21,296 nucleotides of DNA from a virus. The translations under genes were made by a program, and so were the position numbers. The DNA lies in the IMG/VR virus record IMGVR_UViG_3300025769_001011, positions 1-21,296 of that record; one strand, given 5' to 3'. A model generated the notes under the pieces. That model had not been told where the DNA came from. It ran no database searches and saw nothing but the letters and a program-made list of their open reading frames with translations. The first letter of the stretch is position 1. Each line of letters begins with the position of its first letter. Of this stretch, positions 16,855 to 21,296 are shown piece after piece.

Positions 16855-17036
16855 GTTTTTTTGTTGTTTTGGGTGTATTGTTCACAGTAGTGTTTGCAAA
16901 GTGTGTATAGTTCCCCCGCAGTGTCTGTGGTGTAATCTGTTACAGGTGCGTAAGTCATTATTTCTATGATTACTCTATGTAGATTAGGATGTATATTTTT
17001 AGGTGGTTTATTCATCCACACAGTGTTATTTGCCAT
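16851..17036 (-). CDS. Unknown 61-aa protein
   Basis: This small protein starts MANNTVWMNKPPKNIHPNLH and has a helical end with two Cys (LYTLCKHYCEQYTQNNKK). It is the last gene of the methyltransferase operon and overlaps the end of the 118-aa gene by 11 bases. Its stop coincides with the -35 box of the next promoter. I recognise no family; the cysteines are too few to claim a zinc site. Confidence 0.55.
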   Translation of the reverse strand: MANNTVWMNKPPKNIHPNLHRVIIEIMTYAPVTDYTTDTAGELYTLCKHYCEQYTQNNKKT

Positions 17037-17382
17037 GTCTCATTGCCTCCAGCACACTCAATCTCTGCACTATAACACAGGCTTGGGGTGGTTGTGGGTT
17101 TGCGTTTGTGGGGTTTAGAGGATCCATGTAGAAGCAAACAGTGTCTGTGTATCGTGCGTGTTCACTATCATTGTGTAATAGGGTTGCGATGTTCAGTCTC
17201 TGTGCGGAGTTATATGCTATTATAACTGCTGAATATCCCAAGGGAACTAACATGCTTGCTACACCTTCTATATCACTGCGTGGGTTATCTGTGCCCTGTA
17301 TAACTGTGATGGGTCCTGTGCGTATGCCCGGGCAAGTGCCAGATGTGTGTAGTGTGTTAAAATAGTCAAGCCACTGTTTCAT
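17026..17382 (-). CDS. Unknown 118-aa protein downstream of the methyltransferase
   Basis: The product begins MKQWLDYFNTLHTSGTCPG and contains PITVIQGTDNPRSDIEGVASMLVPLGYSAVIIAYNSAQ, suggesting a small alpha/beta domain. I do not recognise it. The longest frame would use a TTG at 17412, but ATG 17382 is preferred. It has AGAGG about 9 bases upstream and overlaps the stop of the mini-gene as ATGA. Cotranslation with the mini-gene and methyltransferase is likely. Confidence 0.6.
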   Translation of the reverse strand: MKQWLDYFNTLHTSGTCPGIRTGPITVIQGTDNPRSDIEGVASMLVPLGYSAVIIAYNSAQRLNIATLLHNDSEHARYTDTVCFYMDPLNPTNANPQPPQACVIVQRLSVLEAMRHGK

Positions 17383-17444
17383 AGTTCTAACCTCTCGTGT
17401 ATAAACTCGCAATAATCTGGGTCTATTTCTGTATTGATTATCAT
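17379..17444 (-). CDS. 21-aa mini-gene between methyltransferase and 118-aa gene
   Basis: ATG at 17442-17444 overlaps the methyltransferase stop (ATGA) and has AGGAG eight bases upstream, within that gene's 3' end. The frame reads MIINTEIDPDYCEFIHERLE and one more residue, and its TGA overlaps the ATG of the next gene. Such perfect overlaps at both ends suggest a coupling ORF or a true micropeptide. Interestingly it begins MIIN, as do the methyltransferase and the 127-aa protein at 19773-20156. Confidence 0.55.
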   Translation of the reverse strand: MIINTEIDPDYCEFIHERLEL

Positions 17445-18190
17445 GTTAGTCTCCTATTTGCTATATCAATATAGTCCGGGCTGATTTCTGTGCCAATACC
17501 AATCCTGCTATTCTGTTTGGCTATCTTGATTGTAGTGCCCGAGCCAGCAAAGGGATCATATACGGTATCGCCCGTGTTTGTCCAAGTTAGAATCTGATCT
17601 TCTGCTAACTGCTCTGGCATAATCGCAGGGTGTTCAAATGCTATTTTATCTTTGGTTGTATGGCCACCACCAACAGTGTATACAAACACATTGTTCAACT
17701 TAGTGTGCGTGTTGCGTTTGGTTTTTTTGTATTCAATAGTGCCTGCTTTACCGCGATATCGCATATTTGCTTCACCAGTATACGCTGTTTCACGCATCAA
17801 CGGGTTGAAGGTCTTTGGCTTTCCTAAACTAAAGCAAAAGATATATTCCCATGCTTGATGATATCGTGGGCTGCTGCTTGAACTTGGCATTGGGTTTCTT
17901 TTAACATAAATCATGGTGTCATTTAGTTTAAAACCCGCGTCAATGAATGCTAATGCTTGACGCATACTTGTGCCAGTTTCGCTACCTTTTACAGTAGCAT
18001 CAGCAACATTCCAAACAATAACACCTCCTGGTTTTACTATTCTCTTTAACTCCGGAAGCATATTTGGTAAATCAAAATCAAAACCCGTGTATTCTCGTAG
18101 GTTGTCGTATGGAGGACTTGTCAATACCATATCAACACAGTCATCTGGTTGTGTTCGCATCCATTCTACACAGTCTTGATTGATGATCAT
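17441..18190 (-). CDS. DNA methyltransferase (beta class, m4C or m6A), orphan
   Basis: This 249-aa enzyme has the catalytic motif IV TSPPYDNLREY at residues 24-34 near the N-terminus and the AdoMet-binding motif I DPFAGSGTT at 212-220 near the C-terminus. This is the order of beta-class amino-methyltransferases (N4-cytosine or N6-adenine). Between them lies KPGGVIVWNVADATVKGSE and a target-recognition region (SSSSSPRYHQAWEYIFCFSLGKPKTF). C-terminal NSRIGIGTEISPDYIDIANRRL completes the domain. No restriction partner is seen, so it probably protects phage DNA or marks it for regulation. The start overlaps the 95-aa gene by ATGA. Target base and sequence cannot be read. Confidence 0.9.
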   Translation of the reverse strand: MIINQDCVEWMRTQPDDCVDMVLTSPPYDNLREYTGFDFDLPNMLPELKRIVKPGGVIVWNVADATVKGSETGTSMRQALAFIDAGFKLNDTMIYVKRNPMPSSSSSPRYHQAWEYIFCFSLGKPKTFNPLMRETAYTGEANMRYRGKAGTIEYKKTKRNTHTKLNNVFVYTVGGGHTTKDKIAFEHPAIMPEQLAEDQILTWTNTGDTVYDPFAGSGTTIKIAKQNSRIGIGTEISPDYIDIANRRLT

Positions 18191-18474
18191 TGTTCTGTCT
18201 TTGTTAACTGTTCACTGAGTAAGAATAAACTAAAGTCTAGGTTAGCAAGTTCTACATCAGGTATGTTAGCATATGTTTGTAGTAGGTTATTTTGTTTGCT
18301 GACGATTTCAAACAACTGCTGTTGCACAGTGCTGTGCCGTTTCATAATATTCAGCATAGTGCTTGCCAGTGTGTTTATTGTGGTCTGCAACTCAACTTGA
18401 TTTTTTGCAAGTTGTTGTAGTATTTCATATGGATTATCATACTGTGCCATATCACCGAGATCTATTGGTTTCAT
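18187..18474 (-). CDS. Unknown coiled-coil protein upstream of the methyltransferase
   Basis: From ATG 18474 the product is about 95 aa, starting MKPIDLGDMAQYDNPYEILQ. It is a Gln/Asn/Leu-rich helix (LAKNQVELQTTINTLASTML, then HSTVQQQLFEIVSKQNNLLQTY) with heptad-like spacing, so probably a coiled coil. A GTG at 18541-18543 would extend it into the terminator hairpin, which is unlikely. No clear ribosome site precedes ATG 18474, and ATG 18450 is another possibility. Its TGA overlaps the methyltransferase ATG, so it may be a partner protein or just a leader gene of that operon. Family unknown. Confidence 0.55.
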   Translation of the reverse strand: MKPIDLGDMAQYDNPYEILQQLAKNQVELQTTINTLASTMLNIMKRHSTVQQQLFEIVSKQNNLLQTYANIPDVELANLDFSLFLLSEQLTKTEQ

Positions 18475-18503
18475 AGTGTATTTAAGCCCGTGTGTTTTTG
18501 GGT

Positions 18504-18553
18504 AAAGAAAAACCCAACAAGTTGTCAGATTAGAGGAGACCACTTGTTGGGTT
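18504..18553 (-). terminator. Intrinsic terminator with 12-bp stem
   Basis: On the minus strand AACCCAACAAGT ... ACTTGTTGGGTT forms a perfect 12-bp stem (18511-18522 with 18542-18553) around a 19-base loop, directly followed by TTTTTCTTT. That is a good Rho-independent terminator for transcripts coming from the right. The loop contains CTAATCT, complementary to AGATTAG just upstream, so it could take part in attenuation. Confidence 0.75.
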
Positions 18554-18620
18554 AGGTTAAACTAATCTAGGAGAATAGTTATGCTGTATAATACACGACG
18601 CACTTGTTATGCGTGTATTG
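18504..18620 (-). ncRNA. Candidate structured small RNA or attenuator leader
   Basis: A perfect promoter (18627-18655) predicts a start near 18620, and the terminator ends near 18504, giving an RNA of about 115 nt with no ATG. The 5' part can fold through AATACACG / CGTGTATT (8 bp). The 3' part is the 12-bp terminator hairpin whose loop (18527-18533) pairs perfectly for 7 bp with 18562-18568, giving an H-type pseudoknot. It could be a standalone small RNA or a leader controlling the methyltransferase operon. No known RNA family is recognised. Confidence 0.45.
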
Positions 18621-18668
18621 TTTATTATTATACATATTTACAGTGCGTGTGTCAACCTTTTTTATCAC
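18579..18668 (-). CDS. Possible 29-aa peptide overlapping a promoter
   Basis: A GTG at 18666-18668 follows TAGGAGACAGC, the same ribosome-site junction used by other genes in this array. It opens a 29-codon frame (starting MIKKVDTRTVNMYNN) to TAA 18579-18581. It spans the consensus promoter, so it could only be made from read-through of the upstream operon. Composition is Tyr/Asn/Lys/Val-rich. It may instead be a remnant of a gene start whose body has been lost. Confidence 0.3.
   Translation of the reverse strand: MIKKVDTRTVNMYNNKQYTHNKCVVYYTA
18627..18655 (-). promoter_or_regulatory. Perfect sigma70 promoter TTGACA-17-TATAAT
   Basis: Minus-strand TTGACA (18650-18655), 17-base spacer and TATAAT (18627-18632) are exact consensus with ideal spacing. 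The 16 bases ATAAAAAAGGTTGACA around the -35 box are identical to the 81-bp cassettes, but the rest differs, including loss of the operator-like core. Confidence 0.88.
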
Positions 18669-18679
18669 GCTGTCTCCTA

Positions 18680-19033
18680 TTAGTAGTCTACGGTTGTATA
18701 ACAAGGTGTTAGTGTTGAACGCACCCGAGTGAATACTGCCCGTGGATGACACTGCCAACCCAACTTAGGGCCAATATTGGAATATTCATCCAGTGTTTTT
18801 TGTAGGCTATCAATATATTCTTCTGATACATTTTCTACAACCACAGCATCACAAGTCTTGGCTGCCTTTTTGTATATGGCACTTGCTGTATTGCGGAATA
18901 ACCAAACGGTATTTTTGCCTTCTAGACATTTAACAGGGTTGCGGTTATATTTGAAACGCCCGATAATGCTGACTAAGTCTGGTGTATGTGCTACATTATC
19001 GATTGTGATTGCTTCGAAGTTTGTGTTTTTCAT
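18680..19033 (-). CDS. Unknown 117-aa protein (second gene of cassette A unit)
   Basis: This basic alpha/beta protein begins MKNTNFEAITIDNVAHTPDL and contains SIIGRFKYNRNPVKCLEGKN and CDAVVVENVSEEYIDSLQKTLDEYS. Four cysteines are scattered, with no clear metal site. Its ATG follows a strong junction ribosome site (GAGGAGGCAGCGTAATG) and shares a base with the stop of the 57-aa gene. It is probably an early or accessory phage protein; no family is recognised. Confidence 0.65.
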   Translation of the reverse strand: MKNTNFEAITIDNVAHTPDLVSIIGRFKYNRNPVKCLEGKNTVWLFRNTASAIYKKAAKTCDAVVVENVSEEYIDSLQKTLDEYSNIGPKLGWQCHPRAVFTRVRSTLTPCYTTVDY

Positions 19034-19206
19034 TACGCTGCCTCCTCTACAAGAGTTTCAAGTTTTAGTTTTAGAAGTTGGGGGTTGTTTCTGTAAGTGT
19101 TTTGGAAAGTTTTAATAGCCCAACTAGCAACCATACGGTCTTCACTGTTTGCTGGGTATTGCTTTAGGATCTTTGCAACTATTTTGAACCGTTCTGCGTT
19201 AGTCAT
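19033..19206 (-). CDS. Unknown 57-aa protein (first gene of cassette A unit)
   Basis: ATG 19204-19206 is the last codon of cassette A, with AGGAG ten bases before it. The 57-aa product starts MTNAERFKIVAKILKQYP and continues with VASWAIKTFQNTYRNNPQLL, all helical and basic, ending in an acidic VEEAA. Its TAA overlaps the next gene's ATG (TAATG). No family is recognised. The ribosome site, exact cassette junction and full-length open frame make it a confident gene despite its size. Confidence 0.75.
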   Translation of the reverse strand: MTNAERFKIVAKILKQYPANSEDRMVASWAIKTFQNTYRNNPQLLKLKLETLVEEAA

Positions 19207-19283
19207 TTTGTATTCTCCTAGTTCGTTTGTTTAACTTATTCTTTATAATAACACGGTATTGCTACCTGTCAACCTTTTTTATT
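19203..19283 (-). promoter_or_regulatory. Promoter/leader cassette, copy A (81 bp)
   Basis: It is identical at all 81 positions to copies B (19697-19777) and C (20965-21045). On the minus strand it carries TTGACA (19267-19272), a 16-base spacer and an extended -10 TGTTATTAT (19245-19253), then a 5' leader, AGGAG and the ATG of the 57-aa gene. The spacer holds ACGGTATTGCTACC (19253-19266, plus-strand reading), an operator-like element. The cassette runs from the stop codon of one gene to the start of the next. Confidence 0.9.
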
Positions 19284-19473
19284 ACGCTGAGTCCTCTTGA
19301 AACTTCTTGTAAGATGCTTCCGGACCCAGTTCTAATCTGTTCCAGTTATTCTCCCCAGACCATTGATTTGCTTGTTGAACTAATGCATTACAATCAAAGT
19401 AATCATTGACTGTGCCAAAACTTACTTGAACATCATCCAAATAAACATACAATGTGTAAAACTTGTGTGTCAT
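19282..19473 (-). CDS. Unknown 63-aa protein (second gene of cassette B unit)
   Basis: The product begins MTHKFYTLYVYLDDVQVSFG and contains DYFDCNALVQQANQWSGENNW, a strand-rich start followed by a helix. ATG 19473 is preferred over the longer upstream reading. It follows the junction GAGGAGACAGCGTAATG, where the upstream stop TAA overlaps it. It ends EDSA with codons GCG TAA, as do its neighbours. The stop lies inside cassette A. Function unknown; a small inhibitor or adaptor protein is possible but unproven. Confidence 0.68.
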   Translation of the reverse strand: MTHKFYTLYVYLDDVQVSFGTVNDYFDCNALVQQANQWSGENNWNRLELGPEASYKKFQEDSA

Positions 19474-19700
19474 TACGCTGTCTCCTCTGTAATAACATCC
19501 CAAGCATTGAAGTCATCATACTCAACACCAACACGCAAACACGCCATTTCTTTTACAGTGTCAGCATCATCAAAGTATTCACCATAACCACTGTCAATGT
19601 AAAGAGCAGTTTCAGCATCACTCATTACAATCTTGTTCAGTAGATTGCCAGTCTGTGGGCAATAGTTCATCATTACAAAGTTGTCTAGTTGCTGTGTCAT
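19473..19700 (-). CDS. Unknown 75-aa acidic protein (first gene of cassette B unit)
   Basis: The product is acidic (MTQQLDNFVMMNYCPQTGNL ... SGYGEYFDDADTVKEM ... EYDDFNAWDVITEETA). Its start is the ATG of cassette B. Small acidic phage proteins are often DNA mimics or inhibitors of host enzymes, but no specific motif supports that here. Its last codons GAG GAG ACA GCG TAA form the ribosome site of the 63-aa gene. Confidence 0.7.
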   Translation of the reverse strand: MTQQLDNFVMMNYCPQTGNLLNKIVMSDAETALYIDSGYGEYFDDADTVKEMACLRVGVEYDDFNAWDVITEETA

Positions 19701-19777
19701 TTTGTATTCTCCTAGTTCGTTTGTTTAACTTATTCTTTATAATAACACGGTATTGCTACCTGTCAACCTTTTTTATT
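19697..19777 (-). promoter_or_regulatory. Promoter/leader cassette, copy B (81 bp)
   Basis: Same 81 bases as copies A and C. It drives the 75-aa/63-aa pair. The TAA stop of the 127-aa gene lies within its first bases on the minus strand. The operator-like core is at 19747-19760. Confidence 0.9.
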
Positions 19778-20156
19778 TGTTAGAAAGAGGAATACGAACA
19801 TCAACTAACCAATAGTCATCACTATTATCTCCCATCAATGTGGCAGTCTTGTCAAGTCTTTCAACTGCTTTCCATTTTTTCTTGCTGTTCTTAAAACGCA
19901 GTTTATACTTACGCCAAGGAACGGCACCAATATCTTCACTGCGAAACTGAAATGCGACATTATTGTGTGAGGCTGTCTTACAAGTCGCGGATTCAGTTAG
20001 CCAAGCGTGACGCCCGATCAAACTATAACCCAAACGACGCTGACTGCGTGTCAGTAAATCCCAACCGCGGTGGGCATTACACCCTTCTAAATCAATATAG
20101 CCGCTGTCATTGATAAGTTTAGCAGTAATGCTGTTAGTAAAATGGTTGATAATCAT
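19773..20156 (-). CDS. Unknown 127-aa protein (second gene of cassette C unit)
   Basis: The product begins MIINHFTNSITAKLINDSGY and is basic in the middle (RGWDLLTRSQRRLGYSLIGR and KYKLRFKNSKKKWKAVERL), ending with DYWLVDVRIPLSNK. It looks like a small alpha/beta domain. The junction TAGGAGACAGCGTGATG offers GTG 20159 or ATG 20156 as starts; ATG is preferred. It follows the 266-aa gene, whose TAG stop overlaps the ribosome site. Family unknown. Confidence 0.65.
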   Translation of the reverse strand: MIINHFTNSITAKLINDSGYIDLEGCNAHRGWDLLTRSQRRLGYSLIGRHAWLTESATCKTASHNNVAFQFRSEDIGAVPWRKYKLRFKNSKKKWKAVERLDKTATLMGDNSDDYWLVDVRIPLSNK

Positions 20157-20167
20157 CACGCTGTCTC

Positions 20168-20968
20168 CTAGTTCGTTACCTTTATGGCGCTTGTTTCTTT
20201 AGAATATTTTGGATCTATAACGGTTTCCGATAGTTGCATGTATTTTTTAATATCACCTTTTCGATAAGCGTTGCATATCCGTAGTTGCTCAACACTCATT
20301 TGATCGTCTCTAATATAAGTCATTGCATAAAATGTTAAGTGATGTGTTGCGTTATCTGCAGGTGTTACTGTAAACTGTCGTTTTTTATAAGTCAGATTTA
20401 TATTCAGAGAGTTCTGGCCTATAGCACCATGGCCCAAGAACGCACCTTGTTTTAGAGGCAATAAGTAATCTTTTCTGTATGAAACGCCGTCGTCTGTGCG
20501 TTTTATTTTAGATGGTGGCGGCAAATGAACAATATTTTCGATTTCTTCTATGTCAATAAAAGTTCCTGTTCTTTCACGGTATCTACCAAAAGCGTGTGGT
20601 GTTATTTTAACACAGCCTAGTTTGTCTGTAATAGTCCAGTTTGCTCTGTTTTTTAACAAAAGTTTTCTACTGACAACATAACAATGCAAAGGGTTTCCCA
20701 AATATTTGTCAAGTTGCCAATACCGTTTACCTGTTTGCCAAAATGGTAAACGGTATTGATACCGTTTACCTGTTTGCGGTATTTTACCTTGTGCCATAAT
20801 CTGCAAATCTTTTTCATCGTCTTTCAATGTGCGTGGATTAAATATTCCTACTTTGGCAAAAGCAAGTTTGAAACTACGCATAGCCTCTTCGTCTTTTAAA
20901 AGGTCATTCCACATGTCAGAGTTTATCATGTCCAACTCGTCTTTGCTAAAAGTTTCCATATCGTTCAT
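20168..20968 (-). CDS. Unknown 266-aa protein with internal 13-residue duplication
   Basis: This is the longest gene of the array. An acidic helical N-terminus (FSKDELDMINSDMWNDLLKDEE) leads to a duplicated QTGKRY motif (residues 65-70 and 78-83, with QYRLPFW between). ITPHAFGRYRERTG (about 121-134) has the H-x3-R-x2-ER pattern seen in some DUF4258/RelE-like small nucleases, followed by IDIEEIENIV and beta strands (LNINLTYKKRQFTVT). A toxin-like nuclease domain is possible but weakly supported. The duplicated segment contains a 26-bp DNA palindrome whose core matches the cassette operator. The start is the ATG of cassette C. Confidence 0.65.
   Translation of the reverse strand: MNDMETFSKDELDMINSDMWNDLLKDEEAMRSFKLAFAKVGIFNPRTLKDDEKDLQIMAQGKIPQTGKRYQYRLPFWQTGKRYWQLDKYLGNPLHCYVVSRKLLLKNRANWTITDKLGCVKITPHAFGRYRERTGTFIDIEEIENIVHLPPPSKIKRTDDGVSYRKDYLLPLKQGAFLGHGAIGQNSLNINLTYKKRQFTVTPADNATHHLTFYAMTYIRDDQMSVEQLRICNAYRKGDIKKYMQLSETVIDPKYSKETSAIKVTN
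20720..20777. repeat. 39-bp-spaced direct repeat inside the 266-aa gene
   Basis: The 19-base ATACCGTTTACCTGTTTGC occurs at 20720-20738 and again at 20759-20777, in frame, encoding the doubled QTGKRY. CAATACCGTTTACC (20718-20731) is also inverted as GGTAAACGGTATTG (20745-20758). Confidence 0.9.
20745..20770. promoter_or_regulatory. 26-bp palindrome, candidate operator
   Basis: GGTAAACGGTAT-TG-ATACCGTTTACC has perfect 12-base arms. Its core ACGGTATTGATACC (20750-20763) differs by one base from ACGGTATTGCTACC in the spacer of all three cassette promoters. It lies inside a coding region, so it could be a repressor site or silencing site, or arise from the duplicated codons. Confidence 0.5.
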
Positions 20969-21045
20969 TTTGTATTCTCCTAGTTCGTTTGTTTAACTTA
21001 TTCTTTATAATAACACGGTATTGCTACCTGTCAACCTTTTTTATT
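20965..21045 (-). promoter_or_regulatory. Promoter/leader cassette, copy C (81 bp)
   Basis: Same 81 bases as copies A and B. It drives the 266-aa/127-aa pair. The stop of the right-edge gene lies within it. The operator-like core is at 21015-21028. Confidence 0.9.
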
Positions 21046-21296
21046 ACCATCTTGGTGTATGATATTCGGTGTCCAAAACACTGTGTCCACGATTGGTCAT
21101 ACACAGTTTTAGAACCCGTTTAAAGTTGTATTCCTTCTCGTCCAACAAATACAAACTTGCTGGGCGAACAAACCAGTTATACCAAGCCTTGGGTATATCT
21201 GTGATTTTGGCGTTCTCGTGTGCAATACGCAAACAGGTGTCCAAATCATCTTCATAGCGTAGTGCTACTTCTGGACTACGGGCACCTCCACTGTCT
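21044..21296 (-). CDS. Unknown protein, C-terminal part (start beyond right edge)
   Basis: The frame is open from the right edge to TAA 21044-21046, giving 83 residues (DSGGARSPEVALRYEDDLDT ... AWYNWFVRPASLYLLDEKEY ... TNRGHSVLDTEYHTPRW). An internal TTG at 21244 is an unlikely start, because the open frame and similar composition continue upstream. The protein is mixed helical with several Trp and Tyr. No family is recognised. It precedes cassette C and probably belongs to the same accessory array. Confidence 0.5.
   Translation of the reverse strand, partial: DSGGARSPEVALRYEDDLDTCLRIAHENAKITDIPKAWYNWFVRPASLYLLDEKEYNFKRVLKLCMTNRGHSVLDTEYHTPRW

Follow-up and report, generated by a model that had tools for sequence, protein, structure and literature searches.

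Leader repeats and predicted antisense RNAs in phages

Repeats lying directly before gene starts are known from the cluster K mycobacteriophages, whose start-associated sequences (SAS) and extended start-associated sequences (ESAS) are compared here with three identical promoter-leader cassettes, and a predicted antisense RNA, in a small-gene operon of the IMG/VR virus record IMGVR_UViG_3300025769_001011 (the whole 21,296-base stretch analysed is called the window). According to the reports on cluster K, these AGGAG-containing repeats precede the starts of unrelated non-structural genes, as they do in the window, and some of the SAS have before them, again as in the window, a repeated element that carries a putative promoter of the sigma70 type (PMC3203893, PMC11373665). 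For phage Adephagia, an ESAS of ~46-47 bp is given that includes a putative SigA promoter (PMC11373665), and four K1 phages are described with one opposite-orientation SAS copy each, away from a gene start (PMC3203893, PMC11373665). The function of the SAS is called unknown in this literature, and the authors of the 2011 report left open an RNA or a protein as partner (PMC3203893). In this regard, our search of the literature, with most subscription journals outside it, found no published antisense partner of the SAS.

Short phage RNAs complementary to phage mRNAs have been described, and the RNA predicted here resembles them in this respect: sar of P22 acts on ant, OOP of lambda on cII, and aQ on Q (PMC12197685). 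According to the same source, sar blocks translation initiation, Sar, OOP and aQ are described with one phage gene target each, and VpdS acts via Hfq on several phage and host mRNAs (PMC12197685). Unlike Sar, OOP and aQ, the RNA predicted here matches, at the level of sequence, a leader present in several copies and eight gene starts within a single operon; a literature search likewise reaching few subscription journals found no phage small RNA aimed at several gene starts of its own phage. SPO1-like phages, which can be likened to the window by description only, have repeated early promoters with shared leaders: many of their small genes follow strong promoters and ribosome-binding sites that resemble one another, and no antisense partner is known for those repeated promoters.

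Three identical promoter-leader cassettes

The recognisable genes of the window, including terminase and capsid, lie on the minus strand, and the source is a tailed phage. On this strand an 81-bp block occurs at 19203-19283 (copy 1), 19697-19777 (copy 2) and 20965-21045 (copy 3), opening genes of 57, 75 and 266 amino acids (aa), respectively. A previous sequence-only reading of this DNA had described the three copies as identical and as running from a stop codon through a promoter and a leader to an ATG, and both statements hold: the copies agree at 81/81 bases, copies 1 and 3 being alike over 83, each includes or overlaps the stop codon of the preceding gene, and the layout from 5′ to 3′ is AATAAAAAAGG, TTGACA, a 16-nt spacer, TATTAT after TG as an extended -10, a 25-nt leader, AGGAG, 8 bases and ATGA. 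In copy 3 the promoter occupies 21034-21007, followed by the leader, AGGAG and the ATGA of the 266-aa gene. A simple promoter scan gave 11/12 consensus bases for all three promoters. The genes opened by the cassettes had been called unrelated, and the 57-, 75- and 266-aa proteins are indeed mutually dissimilar (best E 0.96 over 4 residues), a pairwise comparison on which homologous genes behind the three cassettes were rejected. Chance is not a serious option for an exact 81-nt triplicate, and it is near certain that the three blocks are promoter-leader units. By reading, the cassette has only a 4-bp GGTA/TACC inverted pair, located in the spacer, in contrast with the 17-bp imperfect inverted repeats reported for the ESAS; it was considered as a spacer operator and is only partly conserved in relatives (partly kept in 3/4 of their copies).

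A second contig, G001 (IMGVR_UViG_3300034418_007081, 30,611 b, with coordinates labelled L009), is ~0.4% divergent from the window: over the 14,022 positions of one aligned block there are 51 mismatches and 9 gap openings (99.6%), and over the 6,663 of the other 5 mismatches (99.9%). It carries the same three cassettes, identical at 81/81 bases, with spacings of 494 and 1269 (494 and 1268 in the window). An assembly artefact, a doubt that accompanied the initial description, is unlikely as the source of the copies, given that a diverged contig has them too. Between 18397 and 21296 of the window, 4 substitutions and 1 indel separate both genomes outside the cassettes, and none inside. The break of the G001 contig falls within the terminase gene and would point to a genome that is circularly permuted and some 31 kb long.

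Perfect identity had been taken to imply recent spread or gene conversion, with which the sequences are consistent. In a more distant relative, contig G002 (3300007346_000185), the two copies are 292 bp apart and 78% alike, and therefore homogenisation or recent duplication would have occurred in the lineage of the window; conversion itself is inseparable from recent duplication or purifying selection because the window and G001 are too close. The further suggestion that genes are gained or lost through cassette-to-cassette recombination found no backing, as the order of genes in the operon is the same in G001, the sole other genome found with the cassette.

A predicted antisense RNA at the end of the operon

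The last part of the operon is a locus predicted to encode a short antisense RNA. Its promoter, TTGACA-17-TATAAT (18627-18655, minus), has 12/12 consensus bases and is the best promoter-like site found by the promoter scan across 17000-21296; it has AAAAAAGGTTGACA in common with the cassettes and is preceded, as they are, by AAAAAAGG. This diverged fourth promoter, the second repeated start motif (type B, below) and the small-RNA locus had gone unnoticed in the sequence-only reading, whose coordinates stop just short of the locus. With a 5′ end set by convention 6 nt past the -10, the predicted RNA would span 114 nt (18507-18620, minus) and fold, with a z of -6.05 and 0/200 shuffles as good, into two hairpins, one 5′ and one final, with a weakly paired arm between them. 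The final hairpin, followed by TTTTTC (18507-18553, minus), is terminator-like in fold and sequence and would end both the small RNA and the operon. There is no plausible gene between promoter and hairpin, so that the locus combines, by prediction, its own promoter, an intrinsic terminator and no open reading frame (ORF). The arm, GCATAACTATTCTCCTAG (18567-18584, minus), has complementarity to two targets, the ribosome-binding site of the cassette and the start of a 108-aa gene: TATTCTCCTAG in the arm is antisense to the cassette Shine-Dalgarno region, and GCATAACTATT to the start of the 108-aa gene. In the loop region of the hairpin, GTCTCCTCT (18532-18540) is antisense to a second kind of start, the type-B junction, formed by the repeat AGGAGNCAGCGTRAT. 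At the gathering score, Rfam gave 0 matches in the window, L009, L073, L069, L070, L071, L024, L025 and L012; four permissive scans for a known RNA family gave sub-threshold matches or none, the best in the small-RNA locus reaching 19.5 bits against a cut-off of 66.

Complementarity between this RNA and its target start regions exceeds chance. The duplex of arm and cassette leader has an energy of -20.1 kcal/mol, which 0/5000 dinucleotide shuffles of the arm reach, and the whole RNA contains an 11-nt perfect match to the leader, reached by 4/2000 whole-RNA shuffles. Along the 30.6 kb of the transcribed strand, the arm is the sole perfect complement of at least 10 nt to the leader Shine-Dalgarno region, and GTCTCCTCT occurs once, in this hairpin loop. 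When the 48 gene starts of G001 (8 of the operon and 40 others) were ranked by pairing energy with the arm, the top six all belonged to this operon, namely the three cassettes plus the 108-, 133- and 114-aa genes (-20.1 to -18.3; the 133-aa gene is the G001 form of the 128-aa gene of the window), and the next start stood at -16.0. The longest perfect complements are 11, 11, 11, 11, 9, 9, 8 and 8 nt at the eight operon starts, and, at the 40 others, 10 in one, 8 in two and at most 7 in 37. The contrast between operon and other starts was compared with a null of 505 same-strand windows of 114 nt, using all 40 non-operon starts. Counting the cassette once, it amounts to 2.93 (null mean -0.03, sd 0.41, maximum 1.37). 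Since the arm had been noticed through its resemblance to the cassette, the contrast was recomputed with the cassette excluded, giving 2.60 (null mean -0.03, sd 0.44, maximum 1.47); 0/505 windows reach either value. On the reverse strand, in a comparison based on 37 of the 40 non-operon starts (the three left aside include the one with 10 nt), where the value of the locus is 3.01, 0/457 windows outside the operon attain it.

Our preferred explanation, held with moderate confidence, is that of an operon, which we infer to be early, built of shared promoter-leader units and repressed by its own antisense small RNA. Each of the three cassettes, with a strong host-sigma70-type promoter, a 5′ leader and a Shine-Dalgarno site, precedes a pair of small genes, and the pairs would share their transcription and translation start signal. 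The locus at the end of the operon would be transcribed from its own, more consensus-like promoter, whose upstream part is common with the cassettes, into a short antisense RNA. In the cell, its arm would bind by base pairing to the Shine-Dalgarno region of the three cassettes and to the similar starts of the 114-, 108- and 128-aa genes, and its terminator loop to the type-B junction of the 63- and 117-aa genes. Such pairing would block ribosome entry, and a single RNA species, once accumulated, would shut off translation of the whole block. A shared RNA target, together with a shared promoter, may be one reason for the copies staying alike.

Related cassettes in other phage contigs

Among the matches listed for the large terminase, the nearest named phages are DSL-LC06 and pelagiphages, at 46-50% identity, and the order of terminase, portal, scaffold and capsid in HTVC111P, HTVC202P, HTVC026P, HTVC112P and DSL-LC06 resembles that of the window. 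Consensus-promoter scans of these five records, where no general repeat search was run, showed no such repeated cassette, and a leader-anchored pattern had 0 matches in them. A promoter pattern derived from the window and G002, GGTTGACAGRTANNNNWWCYGTGYTAYWWT, was found in five viral contigs, namely G001, G002, L072, L074 and L073, of which 3/5 had no part in building the pattern; the promoter sequences and flanks of L072 and L074 are the same as in G002 over the stretch compared. In G002, as in G001, the copies are flanked by tail-fibre genes with a terminator on one side and by a DNA methylase on the other, and L073 has two such promoters. Identical copies were seen, among these genomes, in the window and G001 only, and the architecture of the cassette appears, from these sequences, to be old in this phage group. 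Searches with the 266-aa protein and with the leader only each returned G001 as the sole relative. A methylase search gave 39 loci, and a promoter scan of the 38 beyond G001 showed no recognisable cassette, general repeats having been searched in 11 of the 38. Three methylase-bearing phage contigs (L032, L035 and L036) contain 3-8 copies of 31-58 nt repeats, such as AACTGGGCCCCTGAAAGTGC, unrelated to the cassette. A match in a bacterial metagenome-assembled genome, which came from the search of genome contigs, was a lone promoter-like sequence in GC-rich DNA and was taken as chance.

Directly after its cassette operon, L073 has a promoter, a predicted 78-nt RNA with a fold z of -6.2 and a terminator, with no gene. 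Over 11 nt this RNA is perfectly complementary to the leader of the 108-aa gene that a cassette opens in L073, compared with at most 6 nt at 15 other starts tested, and 6/3000 shuffles reach 11 nt. Taken together, the antisense-RNA pattern fits two of three genomes, one of them weakly. Elsewhere in the same contig (L073 9104-8700, minus), a 15-nt inverted repeat, TATGAGGGAAACAAA / TTTGTTTCCCTCATA, behind one cassette promoter covers the ribosome-binding site of a 56-aa ORF, after which roughly 400 nt are apparently non-coding and have no Rfam match.

Weighing the explanations

Several results weigh against an operon repressed by its own antisense RNA. The predicted small RNA is present in two near-identical genomes only, the window and G001, where it is identical, and a search with its segment had G001 as the sole match. 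Moreover, a terminator rule admitting loops of 3-8 only does not list the hairpin at 18507-18553, whose loop exceeds 8. Attention was drawn to the arm by its resemblance to the cassette, so the cassette statistics are partly chosen, and 16/2000 shuffles of the whole RNA attain the duplex energy. By energy, the loop pairs best with the capsid start (-19.3), above the 117-aa (-19.2) and 63-aa (-18.7) genes, and the cassette leader pairs slightly better at one site within the capsid gene. The 10-nt complement at a non-operon start belongs to a doubtful 51-aa TTG ORF opposite a 161-aa ORF. On the reverse strand, a window at the edge of the operon comes close to the 3.01 of the locus with 2.95, its sequence being that of a type-B junction in reverse complement. 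As for the relatives, the duplex energy in L073 is modest, with 49/2000 shuffles attaining it and three other L073 starts having lower energies, and its 11-nt match hits the 5′ part of the leader and lies within the 5′ hairpin of the RNA itself; in G002, 10 kb of transcribed strand hold no perfect complement of at least 10 nt to either leader.

The cassettes might be plain repeated promoter-leader units produced by recent duplication or gene conversion, with 18507-18655 a terminator region that matches by chance or through its pyrimidine content. Repeated promoters are common in phages, and relatives carry such repeats, including G002 with no antisense partner in those 10 kb; in addition, a Shine-Dalgarno site is GGAG-like, so that any CTCC-rich RNA pairs with it, and it is the capsid start that pairs best with the loop. 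We nevertheless consider this explanation unlikely, because the 18507-18655 locus has a perfect promoter with no plausible gene before the hairpin, and because the contrast between operon and other starts lies far beyond the 505 same-strand windows with or without the cassette. A second possibility is that the locus acts in cis, as a 3′ untranslated region or attenuator that ends transcription or lets part of it pass into the 95-aa and methylase genes, the arm in the 3′ untranslated region pairing with the 5′ leader of the same long mRNA and not in trans. The 95-aa gene starts at 18474, shortly past the hairpin, with no promoter-like site listed in between, transcripts of the operon would run into this same hairpin, and the AGATTAG of the arm and the CTAATCT of the loop can pair together, as read from the sequence. 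However, a 12/12 promoter right before the arm would give a free small RNA, and the targets stand under several promoters, so that pairing in cis alone would miss some of them; we regard this as quite improbable.

Finally, the antisense appearance could be a by-product, with ~18555-18590 of the plus strand being an inverted start region and the remnant of a reversed gene (a 43-aa ORF at 18581-18712, plus). The plus strand does offer a good start signal, GTTAAAC..CTAGGAGAATAGTTATG, but the ORF has a coding score of -0.51, compared with a mean of -0.26 (sd 0.28) for 35 antisense ORFs and with higher values for all 9 regional genes scored, and the reversed gene was rejected on that score. Moreover, no plus-strand promoter-like site is listed in 17364-18603, and one inverted copy cannot explain complementarity to three start types, all of which makes such an origin extremely improbable.

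Comparison with the repeats of cluster K

The sequence-only reading had likened the cassettes to the SAS of cluster K, and the functional analogy is apt, although the motif itself is absent: the 13-bp SAS, GGGATAGGAGCCC, has 0 matches in the window on both strands at up to 2 mismatches. The accompanying contrast, by which the whole promoter would be included only here, proved incomplete, as the Adephagia ESAS contains its putative SigA promoter too (PMC11373665); in the window, a sigma70-type promoter within the repeat (TTGACA-16-TATTAT with TG) is found in the three cassettes. Both kinds of repeat differ in size and number, since 11-19 copies are reported for the 13-bp SAS, and the window has three identical 81-bp promoter-leader-start blocks and five type-B repeats. 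The repeats of the window are confined to one small-gene operon, which agrees with the confinement of the SAS to non-structural genes, and their copy number does not match.

If a repressed operon of this kind exists, a wider and more doubtful idea can be put forward: start-associated leader repeats may be addresses for a phage antisense RNA, so that copying the leader before a gene would enrol this gene in a translational regulon under a single anti-leader RNA, and part of cluster K could follow this principle too. Were this true, a shared RNA target would be one reason for repeated phage leaders, and small genes would join a regulated set by acquiring the leader; it would also bear on the question of the role of the SAS in cluster K phages, suggesting a direct test.

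In this line, forward SAS with at most 1 mismatch are present in all 18 cluster K records, 11-18 in each. The single reverse SAS of Adephagia (position 58,682 of the record, between genes 92 and 93) occupies the apical loop of a stable hairpin predicted on the gene strand, with a z of -4.92. The locus was aligned in 14/18 records, excluding SirPhilip, KiSi, Chris and ZoeJ, the first three of which are matched by the initial part of the query only; a single reverse SAS occurs in ZoeJ. A reverse SAS (1 mismatch) in the hairpin loop occurs in Adephagia, Angelica, LastHope, Validus and Yunkel11, that is, in 5/14 aligned (5/18 records), and LilPharaoh keeps the loop with 2 mismatches. In Yuna, Pixie, ShedlockHolmes, MacnCheese, Amgine, Amohnition, Unicorn and Shandong1 the reverse-SAS loop is lost or altered and the SAS are kept. 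At this locus, the records of Angelica and Validus annotate a hypothetical gene, and those of Adephagia, LastHope and Yunkel11 have an intergenic region; there is no standard promoter before the hairpin, the TTGRCN and TAGACT elements in front of it being just 11 bases apart. The idea of an anti-leader RNA is thus not general in cluster K, and the reverse-SAS hairpin is a lead.

The region around this hairpin (Adephagia JF704105 58,540-58,880; L077 33540-33880) is, in its own right, a locus conserved close to the right end in many phages of cluster K, and the hairpin predicted there is strong. A 301-nt query matches 177 phage records, and among the 60 matches listed 37 are unannotated and 23 are annotated as hypothetical protein; Rfam gives no match, and the locus possibly corresponds to a non-coding RNA.

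The small-gene operon and the type-B repeat

The complete operon can be followed in G001. At its upstream end, the transcribed strand shows a late terminator-like hairpin in a ~690-nt stretch with no recognised gene, then an opposite-strand 161-aa ORF, a promoter (L009 9175), a 114-aa gene and a 108-aa lipoprotein-like gene. The order onward is cassette, 266 aa, 133 aa, cassette, 75 aa, 63 aa, cassette, 57 aa and 117 aa, after which come the small-RNA locus, the 95-aa gene and the DNA methylase. The ~690-nt stretch, just upstream of the operon and after the tail-fibre genes (L009 7830-8515), contains TTGTTTAACTTA, a 12-nt complement to the 5′ part of the cassette leader, and a window in it is the top one of the 505 null windows in a run with 37 non-operon starts.

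On the minus strand of the window, the ORFs of 266 aa (20168-20968), 75 aa (19473-19700) and 57 aa (19033-19206) are those opened by cassettes, and their products have no meaningful Pfam or PHROG match (for the 75-aa ORF, no Pfam match at E 0.1); among 10 proteins scanned, only the DNA methylase passed the Pfam cut-off. The ORFs of 128 aa (19773-20159), 63 aa from its ATG (19282-19473) and 117 aa (18680-19033, the final gene ahead of the small-RNA locus) start at type-B junctions. The 128-aa ORF corresponds to a 134-aa frame in G001, tabulated there as 133 aa, through a one-base indel at 19782, at the end of the gene, which moves the stop codon of G001 into the promoter of cassette 2.

The type-B repeat has 5 copies in the window, one of them with a mismatch, compared with an average of 0.01 in shuffles, and the genes with no cassette are, in four cases, joined by it or end in it. 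All copies are on the minus strand: AGGAGACAGCGTGAT at 20155-20169, AGGAGACAGCGTAAT at 19472-19486, the copy with 1 mismatch at 19281-19295, AGGAGGCAGCGTAAT at 19032-19046, and a last one at 18664-18678. At two of the five sites the repeat continues directly into AAAAAAGGTTGACA with no gene in between, being fused to cassette 1 (19281-19295) or to the small-RNA promoter (18664-18678). Such fusions could equally represent a promoter unit inserted at an old start site or the loss of a gene.

Within the 266-aa gene there is, at 20718-20758 of the window, a near-perfect inverted repeat (90%) with 20-nt arms, and the same place in G001 shows a 19-nt direct repeat, GCAAACAGGTAAACGGTAT. The motif AATACCG occurs both in this repeat region and in the cassette spacer.

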